From Lachnospiraceae bacterium (GTDB taxonomy: Bacteria > Bacillota > Clostridia > Lachnospirales > Lachnospiraceae): 58,031 nucleotides of DNA. The stretch covers positions 1 to 58,031 of the forward strand of contig JAEEQL010000004.1 in NCBI GenBank assembly GCA_016285265.1. Reading direction: 5' to 3'. Made by a program: the position numbers and the translations under genes. Under the pieces are notes generated by a model. The model was not told where the DNA came from. It did not search any database and worked only from the letters and a program-made list of their open reading frames with translations. Below are positions 13,138 to 21,846 of the stretch, piece after piece; position 1 is the first letter of the stretch, and each line of letters starts with the position of its first letter.

Positions 13138-13797
13138 TCAGTCCATCTTCCAGTTTTTGAATTCCTTCTTTTCGCCTCTCCAGTATGCGGTGAAATCATC
13201 CCTCGTTCCGTGGAAGAACAATCCTTCCGTAAATCCGCACCAGTTCTCGCCTTCGAGTCCCGTCTTAAGACCGAACAATGCGCTTGCAAGTATGACCACA
13301 TGTCCGTCGTGAGAGCAGATGATATCGAGCTTTCCGTCGGATGACGGGATATCGAATATTGCATTCAGTATCGGAAGAGCTGCCTGATCCAGTGTGTAAC
13401 CCGCGGTATATTCGGGAATACCGTTCTGGAGTCCGTAGTAGAATTTGTACCAGCCTATTCCCTGCTCCTGTGCGGGGCCGAGTCCTTCGATATGTGCAAA
13501 GGCCTGAACCCTTTCAATCCCGGGCTCTTCTATTCCCATTCCCCTTGCGACCTCGGCAGCTGTCTGGACACACCTTTTAACGGGACTTGCATAAAACCTT
13601 CCGACCGGAACATCGAGATTCCTTCCGATCCGGTTTGCGATCTCGATGCCCTCCGGCGTAAGGAGCAGATCCGAATAATCACCGTCTACGGGATTGTCAA
13701 ACCTGATGGAATGCCTCATATAAACCTTTACATTGGTATCCTTGGGAAGTTTGAGAGCATCCTCCTTCATAAGAGGACAGATCGAATCAAAGATCAT
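13138..13797 (-). CDS. Histidine phosphatase family protein
   Basis: VYMRHSIRFDN, RFYASPVKRCVQTAAEVA, CSHDGHV. Confidence 0.8.
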   Translation of the reverse strand: MIFDSICPLMKEDALKLPKDTNVKVYMRHSIRFDNPVDGDYSDLLLTPEGIEIANRIGRNLDVPVGRFYASPVKRCVQTAAEVARGMGIEEPGIERVQAFAHIEGLGPAQEQGIGWYKFYYGLQNGIPEYTAGYTLDQAALPILNAIFDIPSSDGKLDIICSHDGHVVILASALFGLKTGLEGENWCGFTEGLFFHGTRDDFTAYWRGEKKEFKNWKMD

Positions 13798-15377
13798 TTT
13801 ACTTTTCTCCGGCTTTTTATTTTGCTTTGTTTCTTATCTGATGATAATACATCGGCGGAAAAATCAGAACCGTTTTTTTCTTTTCCTGCCCTGATGAGCG
13901 GAAGATGAAGTGTCACGCAGGTTCCTTTGTTCACATCGGATTCGATATCCATACCGTAGTTTTCGCCGAAAAGCACCTCGATCCTTTTTCTTACATTAGC
14001 CAGCGCTATGTGATCAAGACTTCCGCGCTCCGTACCTTCCCCGCTTTCCGTTTCGTTTCTTAACTTTTCCAGTTCACCGGCATCCATTCCCTTTCCGTTA
14101 TCGGTGATCGTTATGAACAGGTCTTCATTCTCCGGGCGGGCATCTATCTCCAGATTTCCGCCCTCTGCGGAAAGTCCGTGCATGATCGCGTTTTCGACAA
14201 TGGGCTGGATCAGCATCCTCGGTATGAGTATATCGCTGAAGGAATCATCTTCCCCGAAGCATACATTTATCATATCGGGGTATCTTGCCTGCATTATCTC
14301 CGTATACTGCTTCAGAACATACAATTCCTCAAGAAGGGAAATGTACTCATCCGAGGCATTGGCATATCTTAATAGGACGGAGAGTTCTGTGCAGATCCTC
14401 GCGGCCGTTTCCCTGTCACCCTTTCCTATAAGCGCCCTTACGATGTTCAGCGTGTTGACCGTAAAATGTGCGCTTATCTGTTTTTTCAAAAGAGTGAGGT
14501 TGGTTCTTTCAAGTTCAAGATCGATGCTTGTCCTTATGAACCTTCTCATGACCATTTCAAAAATAAATGCGGCGATAACGAGTATCAGGATCGTTACCGG
14601 AAGTGCGATGGTGAAAAAGCGGGAGACATCCTTCGAAACTGAATCTACGCAGTACACAACAACCCTGTATCCGGTAAAGCCGATAAACCTCTCGCTTACA
14701 TAGATTGCTTCGGAAAGTCTGCTTTCCACATCCTCCTTGCCGATCCCGCCTCCCGCGCAGATGAGCCTGTCTTCGTAGTAGAGCGCCGCACCTATATAGT
14801 CCGGATCGTTATATGTCGAGAGAAGCTTTTCCACCTTTCTCTGGTCGATCAAAAGAAGAACATAGCCGGTGATCTTGTTTTCATTTTCTATGACACGGTA
14901 TATACCGACATAATTATCCGAGCCCGAGGATACCGAAACCATCCGGTCGCTCTTTCCTTCACTGATGATATGGAAGGAGCTGACAGCTATCGTGTTCGGC
15001 GCAGTCCCTTTAAGCCTGTAAAAATCCCCGTCCGTATTATATACGATAACGTTGTCGGCATTTACAACGCTTTTGAGAACGGGAGCAAGAACATCCTGTG
15101 TGGCACGTCCCATGGCATAGAAATCTTCTCCGAAGTCCAGTGCCGACAGTTTTTTCACGCTCTCATCAATGGCAAGGATCGACGAGCATTCTTCCATCAT
15201 GACAAGTTCGTTTCCGACATCGTTCATAATGGTTCCGACTGCGCTCATCGCATGACGTTCCATATTCTGCCTGATGATCCTGACCGTGAGCTGATAAAAC
15301 ACTACCCAGAGCAGTACTATCCCCGCTCCGAACAGCATCACTCCGATCGTTCTCTTTTTTCCGGAATATTTATACAC
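13794..15377 (-). CDS. Sensor histidine kinase, YesM/LytS (His_kinase) type
   Basis: LLKKQISAHFTVNTLNIVRAL, IPRMLIQPIVENAIMHGL, ITDNGKGM; N-terminal TM and extracellular sensor; 4-nt ATGA overlap with the phosphatase gene. Confidence 0.9.
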   Translation of the reverse strand: MYKYSGKKRTIGVMLFGAGIVLLWVVFYQLTVRIIRQNMERHAMSAVGTIMNDVGNELVMMEECSSILAIDESVKKLSALDFGEDFYAMGRATQDVLAPVLKSVVNADNVIVYNTDGDFYRLKGTAPNTIAVSSFHIISEGKSDRMVSVSSGSDNYVGIYRVIENENKITGYVLLLIDQRKVEKLLSTYNDPDYIGAALYYEDRLICAGGGIGKEDVESRLSEAIYVSERFIGFTGYRVVVYCVDSVSKDVSRFFTIALPVTILILVIAAFIFEMVMRRFIRTSIDLELERTNLTLLKKQISAHFTVNTLNIVRALIGKGDRETAARICTELSVLLRYANASDEYISLLEELYVLKQYTEIMQARYPDMINVCFGEDDSFSDILIPRMLIQPIVENAIMHGLSAEGGNLEIDARPENEDLFITITDNGKGMDAGELEKLRNETESGEGTERGSLDHIALANVRKRIEVLFGENYGMDIESDVNKGTCVTLHLPLIRAGKEKNGSDFSADVLSSDKKQSKIKSRRKVK

Positions 15378-15410
15378 GCTTCAGATTCCAGTACACCATT
15401 CCAAAAGTTT

Positions 15411-16817
15411 TCAATGCAGGATTTCCTCCGCCCCCGAAACATATTCTGTCCAGATGCTGTCGCTCAGAATATCCTCTTCACCCGATACGAATGCGATCAT
15501 ATGACGGTCAAGATACTCCGAAAGCTCCGCATTTCTTGCGGGAAGCTCCCCGTCCGGCTCCGCAAAGCAGCCAATATATGCCATCTGCGCTCTCGCATCA
15601 ACATACTCTGCATCGGAATCAGGTCCGTTCCACGTAACACCGTAAATGTATTTTTCGGGTACCGCCATAGGACCGACACCGTTCAGATTCTTATTCTGTA
15701 CGGCATCGCGGATGTAATTCTTTACAGTGACAGTGGAAGGAGTCATGTAAATGCTTATGTCCTTTCCGTCCGAATAATCCCAGTCGACTCCGGGTTCTCC
15801 GAATCTTGCGATGAGCGATGCTTCTTCGCTCATCATTGTATCCAGCAGAAGCTGTGCGGCTTCCTTCCTTTCGCTCCGTGACAGGATTATCGCTCCGATC
15901 TTTGTTTTGTTTTCGGGGATCATGGCATAGGATATTCCGTTCGGACCGGCAAGCGGAGGAACATACACATACCTGTCCATCACTTCGGGATTTCCGCGGT
16001 ATATGACATCACAGATCGAAGAAGAAGTGAATGCTCCGACTATCGGTAACGGACTGTTTACCATTTCACTCAGCTGTGCATGGGAACAGTCGAAAATTCC
16101 TTTATCCATAAGTCCCTTTTCATACAGTCCGTTACAGTACTCAAGCCCGTCACGGTACGCGGGATCCGCCCATATGCCCTTTCCGTCCGCGGTCATTCTT
16201 GAATGATACGGATCGTTGACGGCAAAGGAACCCATGAGGAATTCCATGGGATTTAAGTCATATTCATCGGCAGAACCCGCAAGCGGTATCTCGTCACGGA
16301 TACCGTTTCCGTTGGGATCTCCGGTTTTAAACGCTTCAAGCACAGCCTCGAATTCCCCGGTGGTTTCGGGGATCTCCATCCCCAGGTTCACCAGCCATTC
16401 TTTGTTTATCCACAGTACCGTTCCCGCACCGGCAGGAGCATCCCAGCCTTCCGACACATATTTAAACTCCCCGTCCGGAAGATAAATATCTCCGCTTGAT
16501 ACATATCCTTCCAGGACTCCGTCACCCGGAACAAAGCTCCCGCCGAACAGCACGACATCGATCTCCGCCCTTGAATCAAAAAGCACTTTAAGATATTCGT
16601 CGCAGCTTTCTATCTTGACGAATGAAACGACTATATCGATCCCCGTCTTTTCCTCAAGATAGTTTATGTAATAATTTGTATCGATATCGGGAATGTTGTC
16701 GGAATAAGGAATCGCGACATTCAAGATCTCGGGCTGCGGTCCGAAACCGCAGCCCGGTATATACAGAAGAGATATTGCAAGAAAAATTGTCAGAAGCTTA
16801 CAGATCTTCCTGTTCAC
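15411..16817 (-). CDS. Extracellular solute-binding lipoprotein (family 1-like)
   Basis: Signal peptide with lipobox YIPGC; DPNGNGIRDEIPLAG typical of clostridial sugar-binding proteins. Confidence 0.85.
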   Translation of the reverse strand: MNRKICKLLTIFLAISLLYIPGCGFGPQPEILNVAIPYSDNIPDIDTNYYINYLEEKTGIDIVVSFVKIESCDEYLKVLFDSRAEIDVVLFGGSFVPGDGVLEGYVSSGDIYLPDGEFKYVSEGWDAPAGAGTVLWINKEWLVNLGMEIPETTGEFEAVLEAFKTGDPNGNGIRDEIPLAGSADEYDLNPMEFLMGSFAVNDPYHSRMTADGKGIWADPAYRDGLEYCNGLYEKGLMDKGIFDCSHAQLSEMVNSPLPIVGAFTSSSICDVIYRGNPEVMDRYVYVPPLAGPNGISYAMIPENKTKIGAIILSRSERKEAAQLLLDTMMSEEASLIARFGEPGVDWDYSDGKDISIYMTPSTVTVKNYIRDAVQNKNLNGVGPMAVPEKYIYGVTWNGPDSDAEYVDARAQMAYIGCFAEPDGELPARNAELSEYLDRHMIAFVSGEEDILSDSIWTEYVSGAEEILH

Positions 16818-17535
16818 CGGGACTCCTCATCTCTTTCGGAGAAACTCCGTAATAATTCTTGAACACTTTGAAAAAATGATAATAGTCGGTGTAGCCGCAC
16901 CTGACACCGATCTGCTTTATCAGAAGAGTCTTATCTTCAATCAGTTCTCCCGCATACTTCATTCTTTTTTCCGTAAGATACATGCTGAGGGACTGGTTGT
17001 AATATTTCTGGAAAAGTGCACAGATATAATTTCTGCTGAATCCGAATTTCTCGGCAAGCATAGACAGGGTTATCTTCTCCCTGAAATTCTCATCGACATA
17101 CTGAACAAGGCTGTTAAAGCCGGGATTGTCCGTTACGCTTCCGCCTTCGGCTGACCTGTTTTTGGACAGCACCGAATTTAGTTTTTCGAGTACGATGCGG
17201 ACATCATCGATATCGACGGGCTTAAGAATATAATCAAAACCGCTCTGCCGGTAAAATGTACGTACATTTTCAAAATCGTCATATGCGGAGATCACAACGA
17301 ACTCCGCTTTGCAGCCGCTCTCCCTTAGCTTTGAGATCAGCTCGTTTCCGTTCATCTTGGGCATCTTCATATCACAGAACACCGCATCGGCATCAAGCTC
17401 TGTGATCTCTTCTATCGCCTTTTCGGGATCGGTATTGCTTCCTATGACCTCAAAACCATTCTCCATCCAGGGAATGATCTCCGTCAGTTCCTCCAATATG
17501 AAACGATCGTCATCGACCAGATATGCCCTGTACAT
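16798..17535 (-). CDS. Response regulator with AraC-type DNA-binding domain (YesN-like)
   Basis: REC domain MYRAYLVDDDRFILEEL...DAVFCDMKMPKMNG; C-terminal AraC HTH. Confidence 0.93.
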   Translation of the reverse strand: MYRAYLVDDDRFILEELTEIIPWMENGFEVIGSNTDPEKAIEEITELDADAVFCDMKMPKMNGNELISKLRESGCKAEFVVISAYDDFENVRTFYRQSGFDYILKPVDIDDVRIVLEKLNSVLSKNRSAEGGSVTDNPGFNSLVQYVDENFREKITLSMLAEKFGFSRNYICALFQKYYNQSLSMYLTEKRMKYAGELIEDKTLLIKQIGVRCGYTDYYHFFKVFKNYYGVSPKEMRSPGEQEDL

Positions 17536-17669: not shown

Positions 17670-18854
17670 ATGGGCAGTTTTAAAGAAGACCAAAACCACA
17701 TACCCGTAACAAAAGAAAAAAAGAGCCTTGTTCAGAGGTTAAGGGATTCGCACATCGCGATGATCATATTCATCCTGACAGTGGTTCTTTTGGTCTGTTA
17801 TGCATGTTATGAACTCGGCGGGGCAAGGGAAGAAGGACTTACCTTCATCGATGTCATCATATACAACCTGCTCGCCCTCGCCGGTAACGACTACGAATTT
17901 ACCGGAACTCCGGGAGGAAGGATACTCGGACTCATAGTCCTCTCACTGGGAGTCCTCGGGCTTTCAACCATCACAGGTTACATCTCATCCGCCCTCGTGG
18001 CCAGCAAACTGAATGCGGAAAGAGGAATCAGAAAAATGCAGAATATGAAAGATCACATCATCGTATGCGGCTGGAAAAACGACATAAAGAGCCTCATCAC
18101 CGGAATCCTCCGCAAGAACAGGAATCTCTCCGTATCGGACATCATCCTCATAACGGGAGCCGATGATGTCAAGGTCCAGGCTCTCAAAGACGATCCCGTT
18201 CTCAAGGGGCTCAACCTTCTTAAAGGGGACTTCACCGAGGAGCAGACTCTCAAAAATGCCGCCATCGGTTCAGCCGCCAAGGTCCTGATCGTCGGAGAAA
18301 ACGGGGACAACCTCGATGATGAGCTGATCGACTCAAGAGTATTCGTCACCGCACTTCTTGCAAGAAATCTCAATTCCAAATGTCATATCTGCGCCCAGAT
18401 CCGAACGGAGCGCTATCGCAACTATCTCGAAGCACAGGGGTGTGCGGAGATCATCTACACCGAAGAATACACAAGACACATACTCACAACATCAACAAAT
18501 TACAGCGGAATGAGCAAGGTCATGAGCTCGCTCCTCGATAACGGCGACGGCATCTCCGTCCAGATAGAGCCCGTAACCGAAAAGTGGATCGGCAGGAAAT
18601 ATTCCGAACTCTTCGACAGCTACAAGAAGGAAAAGAATATCCTTCTCCTCGGCATTCTCGAGAACATGGGTGTTGAAAAAGAGATCAAGCACAGCATACT
18701 TTCCGAAGCACAGAAATCTACCAATTACGGTGAGATCATACAGCGTCTCAAGACCGTTAAGACAATGGAAACAAATAAACCGCTCCTCAATCCCGGCGAC
18801 GATTATGTGATCCCCGCCAATTCCGGAGCGATAATACTCGGAGTGGAGGTCTGA
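17670..18854 (+). CDS. Two-TM ion channel with TrkA-N/RCK domain and non-canonical filter
   Basis: TM1-pore-TM2 ...NLLALAGNDYEFTGTPGGRILGLIVLSLGVLGLSTITGYI..., then RCK DHIIVCGWKNDIKSLI. Confidence 0.85.
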   Translation: MGSFKEDQNHIPVTKEKKSLVQRLRDSHIAMIIFILTVVLLVCYACYELGGAREEGLTFIDVIIYNLLALAGNDYEFTGTPGGRILGLIVLSLGVLGLSTITGYISSALVASKLNAERGIRKMQNMKDHIIVCGWKNDIKSLITGILRKNRNLSVSDIILITGADDVKVQALKDDPVLKGLNLLKGDFTEEQTLKNAAIGSAAKVLIVGENGDNLDDELIDSRVFVTALLARNLNSKCHICAQIRTERYRNYLEAQGCAEIIYTEEYTRHILTTSTNYSGMSKVMSSLLDNGDGISVQIEPVTEKWIGRKYSELFDSYKKEKNILLLGILENMGVEKEIKHSILSEAQKSTNYGEIIQRLKTVKTMETNKPLLNPGDDYVIPANSGAIILGVEV

Positions 18855-19336
18855 TGGAATACACGGATAAACTGAAACAGTTCCCTCTTTTCAATTCCCT
18901 GTCGGAAAAGGACCTTGAGGATTTCGCATCGCTTTTGAAGGTATCGAAGGCATCCGCGGGAGAAAACATCATAACCGAAGGCGCGACGGGAAACGATATG
19001 TATTTCCTTATCGACGGAAGCGTCGACATCATCAAGACAACCGTCTTCGGCGACAAATTCGTATGCGCGAGCCTCGACAGTGCGATGCACTGCGTGTTCG
19101 GTGAGATGGCACTCATCGACAGCGACACAAGATCGGCTACCGTGAAGGCAAGAACCGACTGCGTATCCCTCAGCATATCCAAAAAGGATTTCGATGCATT
19201 TGCGGATTCCCATCCGGCTGCGGGAGTATCGCTCCTTCGCTTCATCGGGATCAATCTTGTCCGCAACATCCGGAAAGAGAACGAGAACCTGAACCTGGTC
19301 TACCAGGCGCTTATAGAAGAGATAGAATCAAACTGA
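18854..19336 (+). CDS. Cyclic nucleotide-binding domain protein, no DNA-binding domain
   Basis: GENIITEGATGNDMYFLIDGSVDI...FGEMALIDSDTRSATVKARTD; start codon overlaps channel stop (TGATG). Confidence 0.85.
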   Translation: MEYTDKLKQFPLFNSLSEKDLEDFASLLKVSKASAGENIITEGATGNDMYFLIDGSVDIIKTTVFGDKFVCASLDSAMHCVFGEMALIDSDTRSATVKARTDCVSLSISKKDFDAFADSHPAAGVSLLRFIGINLVRNIRKENENLNLVYQALIEEIESN

Positions 19337-19365: not shown

Positions 19366-21846
19366 ATGTACAGAACAGACGAACTGCTTTTGATCGAACA
19401 TCTTACCTATATTCCCGACATTCCGCCATTCTTCTCCATCCTTAAGGGAGAAGGAATGACCGTGGGCGATTTCCTTGCAAAGACCGATATGGACGCACTC
19501 GATCCGGAAGTCACATACACAACGCAGATGAACGGAACAGATTTCCGTAACGTCTTCCTTGCAATGAAGAAGAACTCCTCGATCACAAACGCGAAGATTG
19601 CGGAAGCTCATCTCGACAACGCGTTCGGTGCGGGCGGCGGAATATCCATAGTCTTGATCAACGAATCGGATGAACCCGGAGAAAACGGCAAGCATGAAGC
19701 CGTCGTCGCATTCAGGGGAACCGCAGAGAACGAATGGACCGACGATTTCGAGGGTGCGGGACAGGTGGACTCCCTCCAGCAGATCAATGCTCTCGAATGG
19801 TACAAGCAGGTCTACGAAAAGTACGAGCTCGAAAAGTACAATGTCACCGTCATCGGCCACTCCAAGGGCGGTAACAAAGCAAAGTACATCACAATACTGA
19901 ACGACACTCCCTTCCGCTGTGTTTCCTTTGACGGACAGGGCTTTTCCGATAAGTTCATCGATCACTACCGCAAGCGTATCATCGCACGTCAGGGCATAAT
20001 CGAAAACCACAACATCGATTTCGACTATGTAAACATCCTGATGAACGATATCGGTGAAAAGACATATTACATCGGCTACGATTACGGAAAATTCGGATTC
20101 ACCGAATCGCACGCTCCCAACACTTTCTTCGATTTCGGCGAAAACGGTGAATACAATATCCGCGTCAATCCCGGCGGACAGCGCCCCGAGATGCAGATCA
20201 TCGACCAGTTCATAAACAGCATGATCCGCTCCGCCGTCAGTGAAAAGGAAAGCTCAGAAACAAACCACCTTGTCGGAATGCTGGTCGAAAAGGCATTCTC
20301 ACTGTCAAGCGGCTGCGATGTTTCGGAATTCATCACATTCCTCTGCGATATGATCGGAGATCCCAAATATTCCGACAATGTCGCATACCTTCTTGCGTAC
20401 TGCATCCTTTACTCACGCAAGAATCCCGATCTCCTCAAATCGATGAGGAGCATCATGACCGCATTCAGGGCTGACGGTGTTCTTAAGATAATCGACATGG
20501 TCGACGACCTTGTAACCTCCAAAAAGCTCAACGCTCTTCTCGGTGTTACCGATTTCCTTGTCGTTCACGTCAACCGCCCCATCACCAAGAGCATCCGGTC
20601 CTTCGCAAAAAAGAAATACGATGTCGACCTTAAGCCCGATCAGGTAAGCAGCATACTGCGTATCGCTTCACTTACAAGGCAGATGGTGCACTCTCTGGAA
20701 CTCAACATGGACGGATCCGATCTCGTCGTCGAAGAGGTACGCCTTTCGGAGGACGATCTCAGGGAATTTGTTCTTCCCGGAAATCTCAACATAGTGGTTC
20801 TCGCAGGCGGTCTTTCCAACGAAAGAAACCTTTCGCTCAAGACCGGGGTTACGGTTGCGGACATTTTAAGGGGCAGGGGAAACAGCGTAATACTTCTCGA
20901 TGCATTCATGGGTTACGGAGACACGGAAGAGCTTCTTCCCGACAATGTATTCGAAGCTCCCTTCAAATATTCACTCTCACCCGGCGATATCCCCGATGAG
21001 ATACCCGATCTGTGGGCTACAAGAAAACGCCGTCCCGACCAGTCGGGTGCATACTTCGGACCTAATGTGCTCCAGATCTGCAGACAGTCCGACCTCATCT
21101 TCGTCGCACTTCACGGAGCTAACGGTGAGAACGGCAAGGTCCAGGCCGCATTCGACCTTCTCGGTCTCGACTACACCGGATGCGATTACTTCTCATCCGC
21201 AATATCATCCAACAAGGCTGCGGCAAAGCAGCTCATGCAGACCCTCGGAGTTCCGGTGCCGAGCGGATATACCATCAAGAAGGCATCCGACATACCCGAT
21301 CCTGCGACCATGGGACTTAAGCTTCCCGTTATCGTAAAGCCCAATAACGGAGGAATCGGCGTTGGAATTTCCGTAGCTACAGACCTGACCGCATATGAGA
21401 AAGCCGTAAGAGCCGCATTCAGATGGGATACCGAGATCCTCGTCGAGGAATACTTCCCCGGACGTGAATTTGCCGTATGCACGATCGAAGGAAAGGCACT
21501 TCCCGTCCTTGAAAAGCTCCCCATGGAGACAAGCGACAGGGAAAAAGGCCTTACGCTTTCCGGAAAAACAATCAACAAATGTCCCGCAGACATCCCCGAA
21601 GAGCTTGCAAAGGCACTTCAAAAATCGGCAGAGGATGCCGCATTTGCTCTCGGCGTAAACGCATATGCGAAATTTGACTTCATTGTGGGACAGGACGGAA
21701 AATCCTTCGTCTGCCTCGAGTGCGACTCGCTGCCGCAGCTCTATCCCGATTCGGACCTCGTCATTTCGGCCAAAGCGGCGGGAAGAAGCTTCGGAGATCT
21801 GTGTGACAAGATCATGGAGATCAGCCTGGTAGGCAAGTCAAACTGA
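19366..21846 (+). CDS. Fusion protein: N-terminal Mbeg1/DUF2974-like lipase-fold hydrolase and C-terminal D-Ala-D-Ala-ligase-like ATP-grasp domain
   Basis: N-term AFRGTAENEWTDDFEGA, VTVIGHSKGGNKAKY; C-term VVLAGGLSNERNLSLKTG, LPVIVKPNNGGIGVGIS, LECDSLPQLYPDSDLVISAKAAG. Confidence 0.85.
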   Translation: MYRTDELLLIEHLTYIPDIPPFFSILKGEGMTVGDFLAKTDMDALDPEVTYTTQMNGTDFRNVFLAMKKNSSITNAKIAEAHLDNAFGAGGGISIVLINESDEPGENGKHEAVVAFRGTAENEWTDDFEGAGQVDSLQQINALEWYKQVYEKYELEKYNVTVIGHSKGGNKAKYITILNDTPFRCVSFDGQGFSDKFIDHYRKRIIARQGIIENHNIDFDYVNILMNDIGEKTYYIGYDYGKFGFTESHAPNTFFDFGENGEYNIRVNPGGQRPEMQIIDQFINSMIRSAVSEKESSETNHLVGMLVEKAFSLSSGCDVSEFITFLCDMIGDPKYSDNVAYLLAYCILYSRKNPDLLKSMRSIMTAFRADGVLKIIDMVDDLVTSKKLNALLGVTDFLVVHVNRPITKSIRSFAKKKYDVDLKPDQVSSILRIASLTRQMVHSLELNMDGSDLVVEEVRLSEDDLREFVLPGNLNIVVLAGGLSNERNLSLKTGVTVADILRGRGNSVILLDAFMGYGDTEELLPDNVFEAPFKYSLSPGDIPDEIPDLWATRKRRPDQSGAYFGPNVLQICRQSDLIFVALHGANGENGKVQAAFDLLGLDYTGCDYFSSAISSNKAAAKQLMQTLGVPVPSGYTIKKASDIPDPATMGLKLPVIVKPNNGGIGVGISVATDLTAYEKAVRAAFRWDTEILVEEYFPGREFAVCTIEGKALPVLEKLPMETSDREKGLTLSGKTINKCPADIPEELAKALQKSAEDAAFALGVNAYAKFDFIVGQDGKSFVCLECDSLPQLYPDSDLVISAKAAGRSFGDLCDKIMEISLVGKSN

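Follow-up and report, generated by a model that had tools for sequence, protein, structure and literature searches.

An MthK-type channel of gut bacteria with a GND filter, probably a cAMP-linked cation channel

Does an RCK channel whose pore reads GND where TVGYG is expected still belong with the potassium channels? Few elements of ion channels are as conserved as the TVGYG filter, and families that in nature have rigidly kept another one are rare test cases for how selectivity arises. The gene that raised this question lies in a 58,031-nucleotide stretch of Lachnospiraceae bacterium DNA (contig JAEEQL010000004.1), the whole of which we call the window. The original prediction described a compact two-transmembrane (2TM) RCK channel, related to the pore of plant CASTOR/POLLUX channels, whose selectivity for K+ could not be assumed. 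On re-checking, the open reading frame lay exactly at the stated coordinates, with the pore segment as quoted, and the gene and its parts were as follows.

17670..18854 (+): channel gene; 394 aa, ATG start, MthK-type 2TM plus RCK with GND filter
17754..17816 (+): TM1, residues 29–49; a helix in the AlphaFold model, with a matching helix in the second model
17844..17879 (+): pore helix, residues 59–70; F59 in 41 of 42 family rows, D61 in 41 of 42
17880..17894 (+): selectivity-filter region, A71-G72-N73-D74-Y75
17910..18041 (+): TM2 and RCK linker, residues 81–124, placed by AlphaFold and conservation
18042..18458 (+): RCK_N Rossmann lobe, residues 125–263; PF22614 over 125–241, PF02254 over 130–263
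18558..18851 (+): RCK_C-like lobe, residues 297–394, placed by strand/helix pattern and alignment with canonical relatives
18675..18782 (+): RCK_C insert, residues 336–371, 36 residues, EKEIKHSILSEAQKSTNYGEIIQRLKTVKTMETNKP

The predicted RCK domain was confirmed by two Pfam matches above cut-off in the RCK_N lobe, Slo-like_RCK (1.7e-10, residues 125–241) and TrkA_N (1.6e-7). The same search reported no TrkA_C over the RCK_C-like lobe and no match over the pore of the window's channel, Ion_trans_2 included; Ion_trans_2 was found in 5 of 33 family members, with a best E-value of 0.084. NCBIfam gave nothing beyond a potassium channel model matched below threshold. AlphaFold models, monomeric and of moderate confidence, covered two members, the window protein and a 56% identical relative, L046 (mean pLDDT 72 and 75, rising to about 80 in the pore; pTM 0.45–0.47). 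Both contained TM1, a short pore helix (59–70), a non-helical loop (71–80) and TM2; the pore loop on which the original prediction depended was thus present in each. In a Foldseek search with the whole model, MthK ranked first (1.6e-14) and the CASTOR gating ring came only 40th (4.8e-10), a ranking that runs against CASTOR/POLLUX kinship. With TM1, pore loop and TM2 followed by RCK_N and RCK_C, the domain matches and predicted folds showed a 2TM-RCK protein of MthK architecture, and the prediction of a compact two-transmembrane RCK channel with a non-TxGYG filter was upheld. The window's genome carried a single copy.

A one-genome-per-species scan returned 43 loci, most of them in Lachnospiraceae metagenome-assembled genomes from ruminants and a few labelled Acholeplasmatales, Erysipelotrichaceae, Bacillales or Anaeroplasma. 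The family alignment comprised 42 full-length GND rows: that of the window and those of 40 further genomes, with one genome entered twice. The channel gene heads a conserved cassette, and this cassette is rare: close relatives of the channel occurred in 2 of 295 genomes of an order sample and in 2 of 200 genomes of a family sample, the latter both from the window's genus. No relative of the channel was found on viral contigs and no copy on plasmids, where the sole match was a distant RCK on one Tsukamurella plasmid. Residues G87, L91, S99, G103, S106, S107 and V110 of TM2 and the linker were invariant in the alignment. The 36-residue RCK_C insert was nearly invariant, ranking among the protein's best-kept stretches, and had no counterpart in the canonical or CASTOR-like relatives compared.

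Neither TxGYG nor TxGFG was found in the window protein or in any of the 42 family rows, so the predicted loss of the canonical filter was borne out throughout. Instead, G72-N73-D74-Y75 was invariant in all 42 rows, down to about 55% identity, and for this reason the GND filter is not a chance feature. Preceding positions held A/T/S (69), V/L/I/M/T (70) and A/T/I/S/L (71), and position 79 was acidic in 31 of the 42 rows. A sequencing or assembly artefact was ruled out because 40 other genomes agree. We also rejected a displaced filter, for which the TM2 segment 'STITGYISS' ('TITGYI') was the candidate, because TM2 aligns throughout with canonical TM2.

Outside the filter the pore is, judged by profile alignment, that of a canonical channel. 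Comparison of TM1-pore-TM2 with 20 canonical 2TM-RCK K+ channels in hhalign gave 97.6% (P 2.7e-12, 105 columns), with the filter as the main gapped region. The pore-helix Asp and the filter Asp were 13 residues apart in all 42 rows, versus 16 in the canonical relatives (D...TVGYGD); the loop past the filter Asp was one residue longer than canonical in most rows, and the GNDY pore loop was a net two residues shorter. Two registers are possible: a letter match that equates GND with YGD, and an ungapped pore-helix alignment that equates GNDY with TVGY. The latter, in which two residues would be lost at the outer end, is favoured because both AlphaFold models keep the pore helix at its canonical position and have the filter in the loop that follows. 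Given this helix position and the ungapped alignment, D74 would lie within the filter. The caution that K+ selectivity cannot be assumed was upheld. We found no account of the GND filter or of the cassette in the open-access literature; the filter is a new variant within the MthK-type class, and the channel-CNBD-hydrolase/ligase cassette is conserved and apparently undescribed. Its two further genes in the window are:

18854..19336 (+): gene 2, cyclic-nucleotide-binding-domain (CNBD) protein, 160 aa; PF00027 3.1e-17
19366..21846 (+): gene 3, hydrolase/ligase fusion, 826 aa; PF11187 5.3e-9, PF01820 6.4e-17, PF07478 2e-22

The start of gene 2 overlaps the channel's stop by 1 nt, and a CNBD gene followed the channel in 42 of 42 rows, 0–233 bases away. 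Conservation analysis showed an invariant phosphate-binding cassette (F82-G-E-M-A...R93-S, including E84 and R93). The cAMP-type pocket is intact, and the protein would probably bind cAMP; a domain search found no DNA-binding domain in it. Gene 3 joins an Mbeg1-like serine hydrolase (GHSKGG, with S166 invariant) to a D-Ala-D-Ala-ligase-like ATP-grasp domain. It was present in 39 of 42 rows; two of the three gaps were short loci, leaving L050 as the sole apparent absence. The ligase-type E-x-N motif of gene 3 reads E-C-D, which suggests an altered substrate. The notion that this ligase is the genome's only Ddl was rejected, as a stronger stand-alone Ddl match lies on another contig.

The cassette stayed intact although its flanking genes differed between clades, and metabolic flanks were syntenic within clades. 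Directly upstream of the channel, the window carries divergently encoded genes for a histidine kinase, a solute-binding protein and an AraC-type response regulator (13794–17535, minus strand); we place these outside the cassette because they are retained in the closest relatives only. In 11 loci (L002, L021–L028, L038, L042) a 231-aa gene stood between genes 2 and 3, and its product matched no Pfam family (best DUF7698, E 0.14). Solo relatives of the hydrolase domain (L086–L101, about 27–46% identical) occurred in other Lachnospiraceae and order members, with no channel or CNBD within about 1.5 kb and no ligase nearby.

As a source of cyclic nucleotide, the window's genome holds a single class III cyclase, a CHASE2-cyclase fusion of 607 aa (L102; contig C92, 1462–3285, minus strand; CHASE2 1.1e-41, cyclase 1e-25). 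Class III cyclases were present in 36 of 40 carrier genomes versus 47 of 295 in the order sample and 40 of 200 in the family sample (16–20%), giving an odds ratio of about 50 in a naive Fisher test that ignores kinship. Most of the cyclase-bearing relatives sampled lack the cassette, and the link shows association but does not prove a pathway. The catalytic motifs F-x-D, K-F-x-G-D and T-A-I-G-D were largely kept in the 31 aligned cyclases, and because of this conservation we infer that cAMP is the product.

The explanation that we favour, tentatively and with somewhat less than even confidence in it as a whole, is a cation channel without strict K+ selectivity that is gated by its RCK domain and by a CNBD protein in trans. 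By analogy with the MthK-type superfamily, four subunits would form the pore and an octameric RCK ring would gate it. Because a shorter GNDY-containing loop takes the place of TVGYGD, the chain of K+-coordinating carbonyls cannot form as it usually does, and the pore would most likely conduct Na+, K+ and possibly Ca2+. Opening would be set jointly by the RCK ring and the cAMP-type CNBD protein of the overlapping next gene, making a split cyclic-nucleotide-gated channel that reads cAMP from the CHASE2 class III cyclase. The family-specific RCK_C insert might offer a docking site, and gene 3 would be a probable downstream, envelope-related enzyme; the CNBD protein could also regulate gene 3 and not the channel. 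A fuller version is conceivable but doubtful: a two-component CNG channel in which a stand-alone cAMP receptor docks on the RCK_C insert, gates the GND-filter RCK channel and is coupled to the hydrolase/ligase as an envelope enzyme, so as to carry cAMP signals to the membrane in rumen Firmicutes.

We weighed this split cation channel against four other accounts, beginning with the proposal that the protein is akin to the Ca2+ channels CASTOR/POLLUX of plants, in a compact bacterial form whose filter is of the ADSGN type. Both groups lack TxGYG and share a G-N pair, and the RCK domain matched CASTOR chains weakly (E 0.021). However, pore and RCK profiles were far nearer to canonical K+ channels. 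The pore and TM2 profile matched bacterial CASTOR-like proteins at about 10% (P 0.003, versus 2.7e-12 for canonical channels) and the RCK profile at P 1.5e-7 (versus 9.8e-33), the CASTOR-like profile being a thin one of five or six sequences whose own pore also matched the K+ set poorly. A tblastn search with a CASTOR fragment that served as bait only found these CASTOR-like proteins in Deinococcus, Streptomyces and Nonomuraea. The proteins (L063–L068, from Deinococcus, Streptomyces and Nonomuraea plasmid records) are tandem-RCK channels, annotated, where at all, as NAD-binding protein, NAD-binding lipoprotein or potassium transporter TrkA, and have filters such as LDSGALGGD (ALDSGALGGD) or LKIGGEVGP in place of TVGYG. 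They are about 640 aa long with two RCK units, whereas the window protein has a single RCK_N/RCK_C in 394 aa. The plant CASTOR filter reads AD265S(A)GNHA, and D265N abolished activity (PMC6697748). The equivalent position in the GND family holds L/V/I/M/T with no acidic residue, so that no ADSGNHA-type filter is present. The 'GN' that had been equated with ADSGN lies about three residues nearer the pore-helix start than the CASTOR-like D-S-G, and the 'T..GR' taken for a CASTOR-like motif is the ordinary GGR that opens TM2 in K+ channels.

A Castor_Poll_mid (PF06241) search likewise failed to link the window protein to CASTOR, giving nothing above cut-off there and weak matches in 3 of 33 family members (best 0.089). 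We rejected this profile as a CASTOR detector for its lack of specificity in the phylum sample: its Firmicutes matches L053–L062 consisted of canonical TVGYG/TVGF/TVGY channels together with other RCK/TrkA proteins, and because ordinary TVGYG-type RCK channels match, it is a poor marker of CASTOR kinship. In a 42-row tree the GND proteins formed one clade and the CASTOR-like proteins another, each fully supported and on a long branch, with the K+ channels as one side of the deep split at 76/73. With branches of this length, AU tests rejected none of the alternative placements (p 0.18–0.54), a grouping of GND with CASTOR-like proteins (p 0.54) among them. Chance or convergence best accounts for the 'GN' that the two groups have in common. 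The predicted kinship is not supported by these comparisons; we consider it improbable and would abandon the CASTOR/POLLUX reading unless a deeper tree speaks for it. Two other accounts stay closer to the MthK-type frame, and we judge each unlikely. A non-conducting, membrane-anchored RCK sensor, which on meeting its ligand would signal to the CNBD protein or to gene 3, would agree with the loss of the canonical filter and the strong conservation of RCK_N, RCK_C and the 36-residue insert, but a decayed pore would be expected to drift, and GNDY, G87, S99, G103, S106 and S107 are invariant. A channel that is K+-selective after all, the GNDY loop supplying carbonyl sites good enough for K+, has a similarly small chance: the remaining pore parts and the RCK are all canonical, but it must accommodate N and D in the filter region, a loop shortened by two residues and the lack of T-x-G-[YF]-G. 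Hydrolases and channels are typical anti-phage effectors, and the CNBD protein matched the Pycsar TIR-effector CNBD profile (8e-19), as would suit a defence system in which a cyclic nucleotide serves as the alarm and the CNBD protein, on sensing it, sets off the channel or the hydrolase. That match reflects the generic CNBD fold, however; the channel and gene 3 had no meaningful defence-model match, the cassette contains no cyclase, and the lack of viral or plasmid copies and the syntenic metabolic flanks also make an anti-phage role very unlikely.

We concluded that this gut-bacterial GND channel is probably a cAMP-linked cation channel, distinct from ordinary potassium channels. With its invariant GNDY loop shortened by two residues within a frame that is otherwise MthK-like, the effect of the change is directly measurable. 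To our knowledge, cAMP targets in Firmicutes are poorly known, and the CNBD pairing together with the strong cyclase co-occurrence suggests a route from cAMP to an ion channel in these bacteria.

Among known systems, plant CASTOR/POLLUX/DMI1 and the bacterial CASTOR-like proteins resemble the GND channel as RCK channels without TVGYG, the plant filter also having the letters G-N. Unlike it, they have tandem RCKs, an acidic filter residue and another register, and the plant proteins have extra N-terminal transmembrane segments. The nearest sequence relatives found were canonical bacterial 2TM-RCK K+ channels (e.g., L070 and L003), homologous in pore and RCK; these have TVGYGD, with 16 and not 13 residues from Asp to Asp, and no cassette partners were found around L003–L009. 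MthK, a Ca2+-gated 2TM-RCK K+ channel and the best Foldseek match, shares the order TM1-pore-TM2-RCK_N-RCK_C, whereas the GND channel has the shorter GNDY loop for TVGYG, the RCK_C insert and a CNBD partner gene. NaKTs of Tsukamurella paurometabola, a non-selective, Ca2+-activated cation channel with the filter LPMGNGPLSP, is likewise a prokaryotic 2TM channel with a non-canonical G-N filter, but its filter is full-length with prolines, it belongs to another family, and no CNBD/hydrolase cassette is described for it (PMC5052707). NaKTs is thus a precedent for lack of selectivity in a bacterial 2TM channel whose filter has an unusual G-N. NaK and prokaryotic CNG-type channels with a C-terminal CNBD resemble the proposed channel in relaxed K+ selectivity, and control by a cyclic-nucleotide domain would be the parallel (5v4s was a weak match); in the present cassette, the CNBD has a gene of its own and the RCK is part of the channel.
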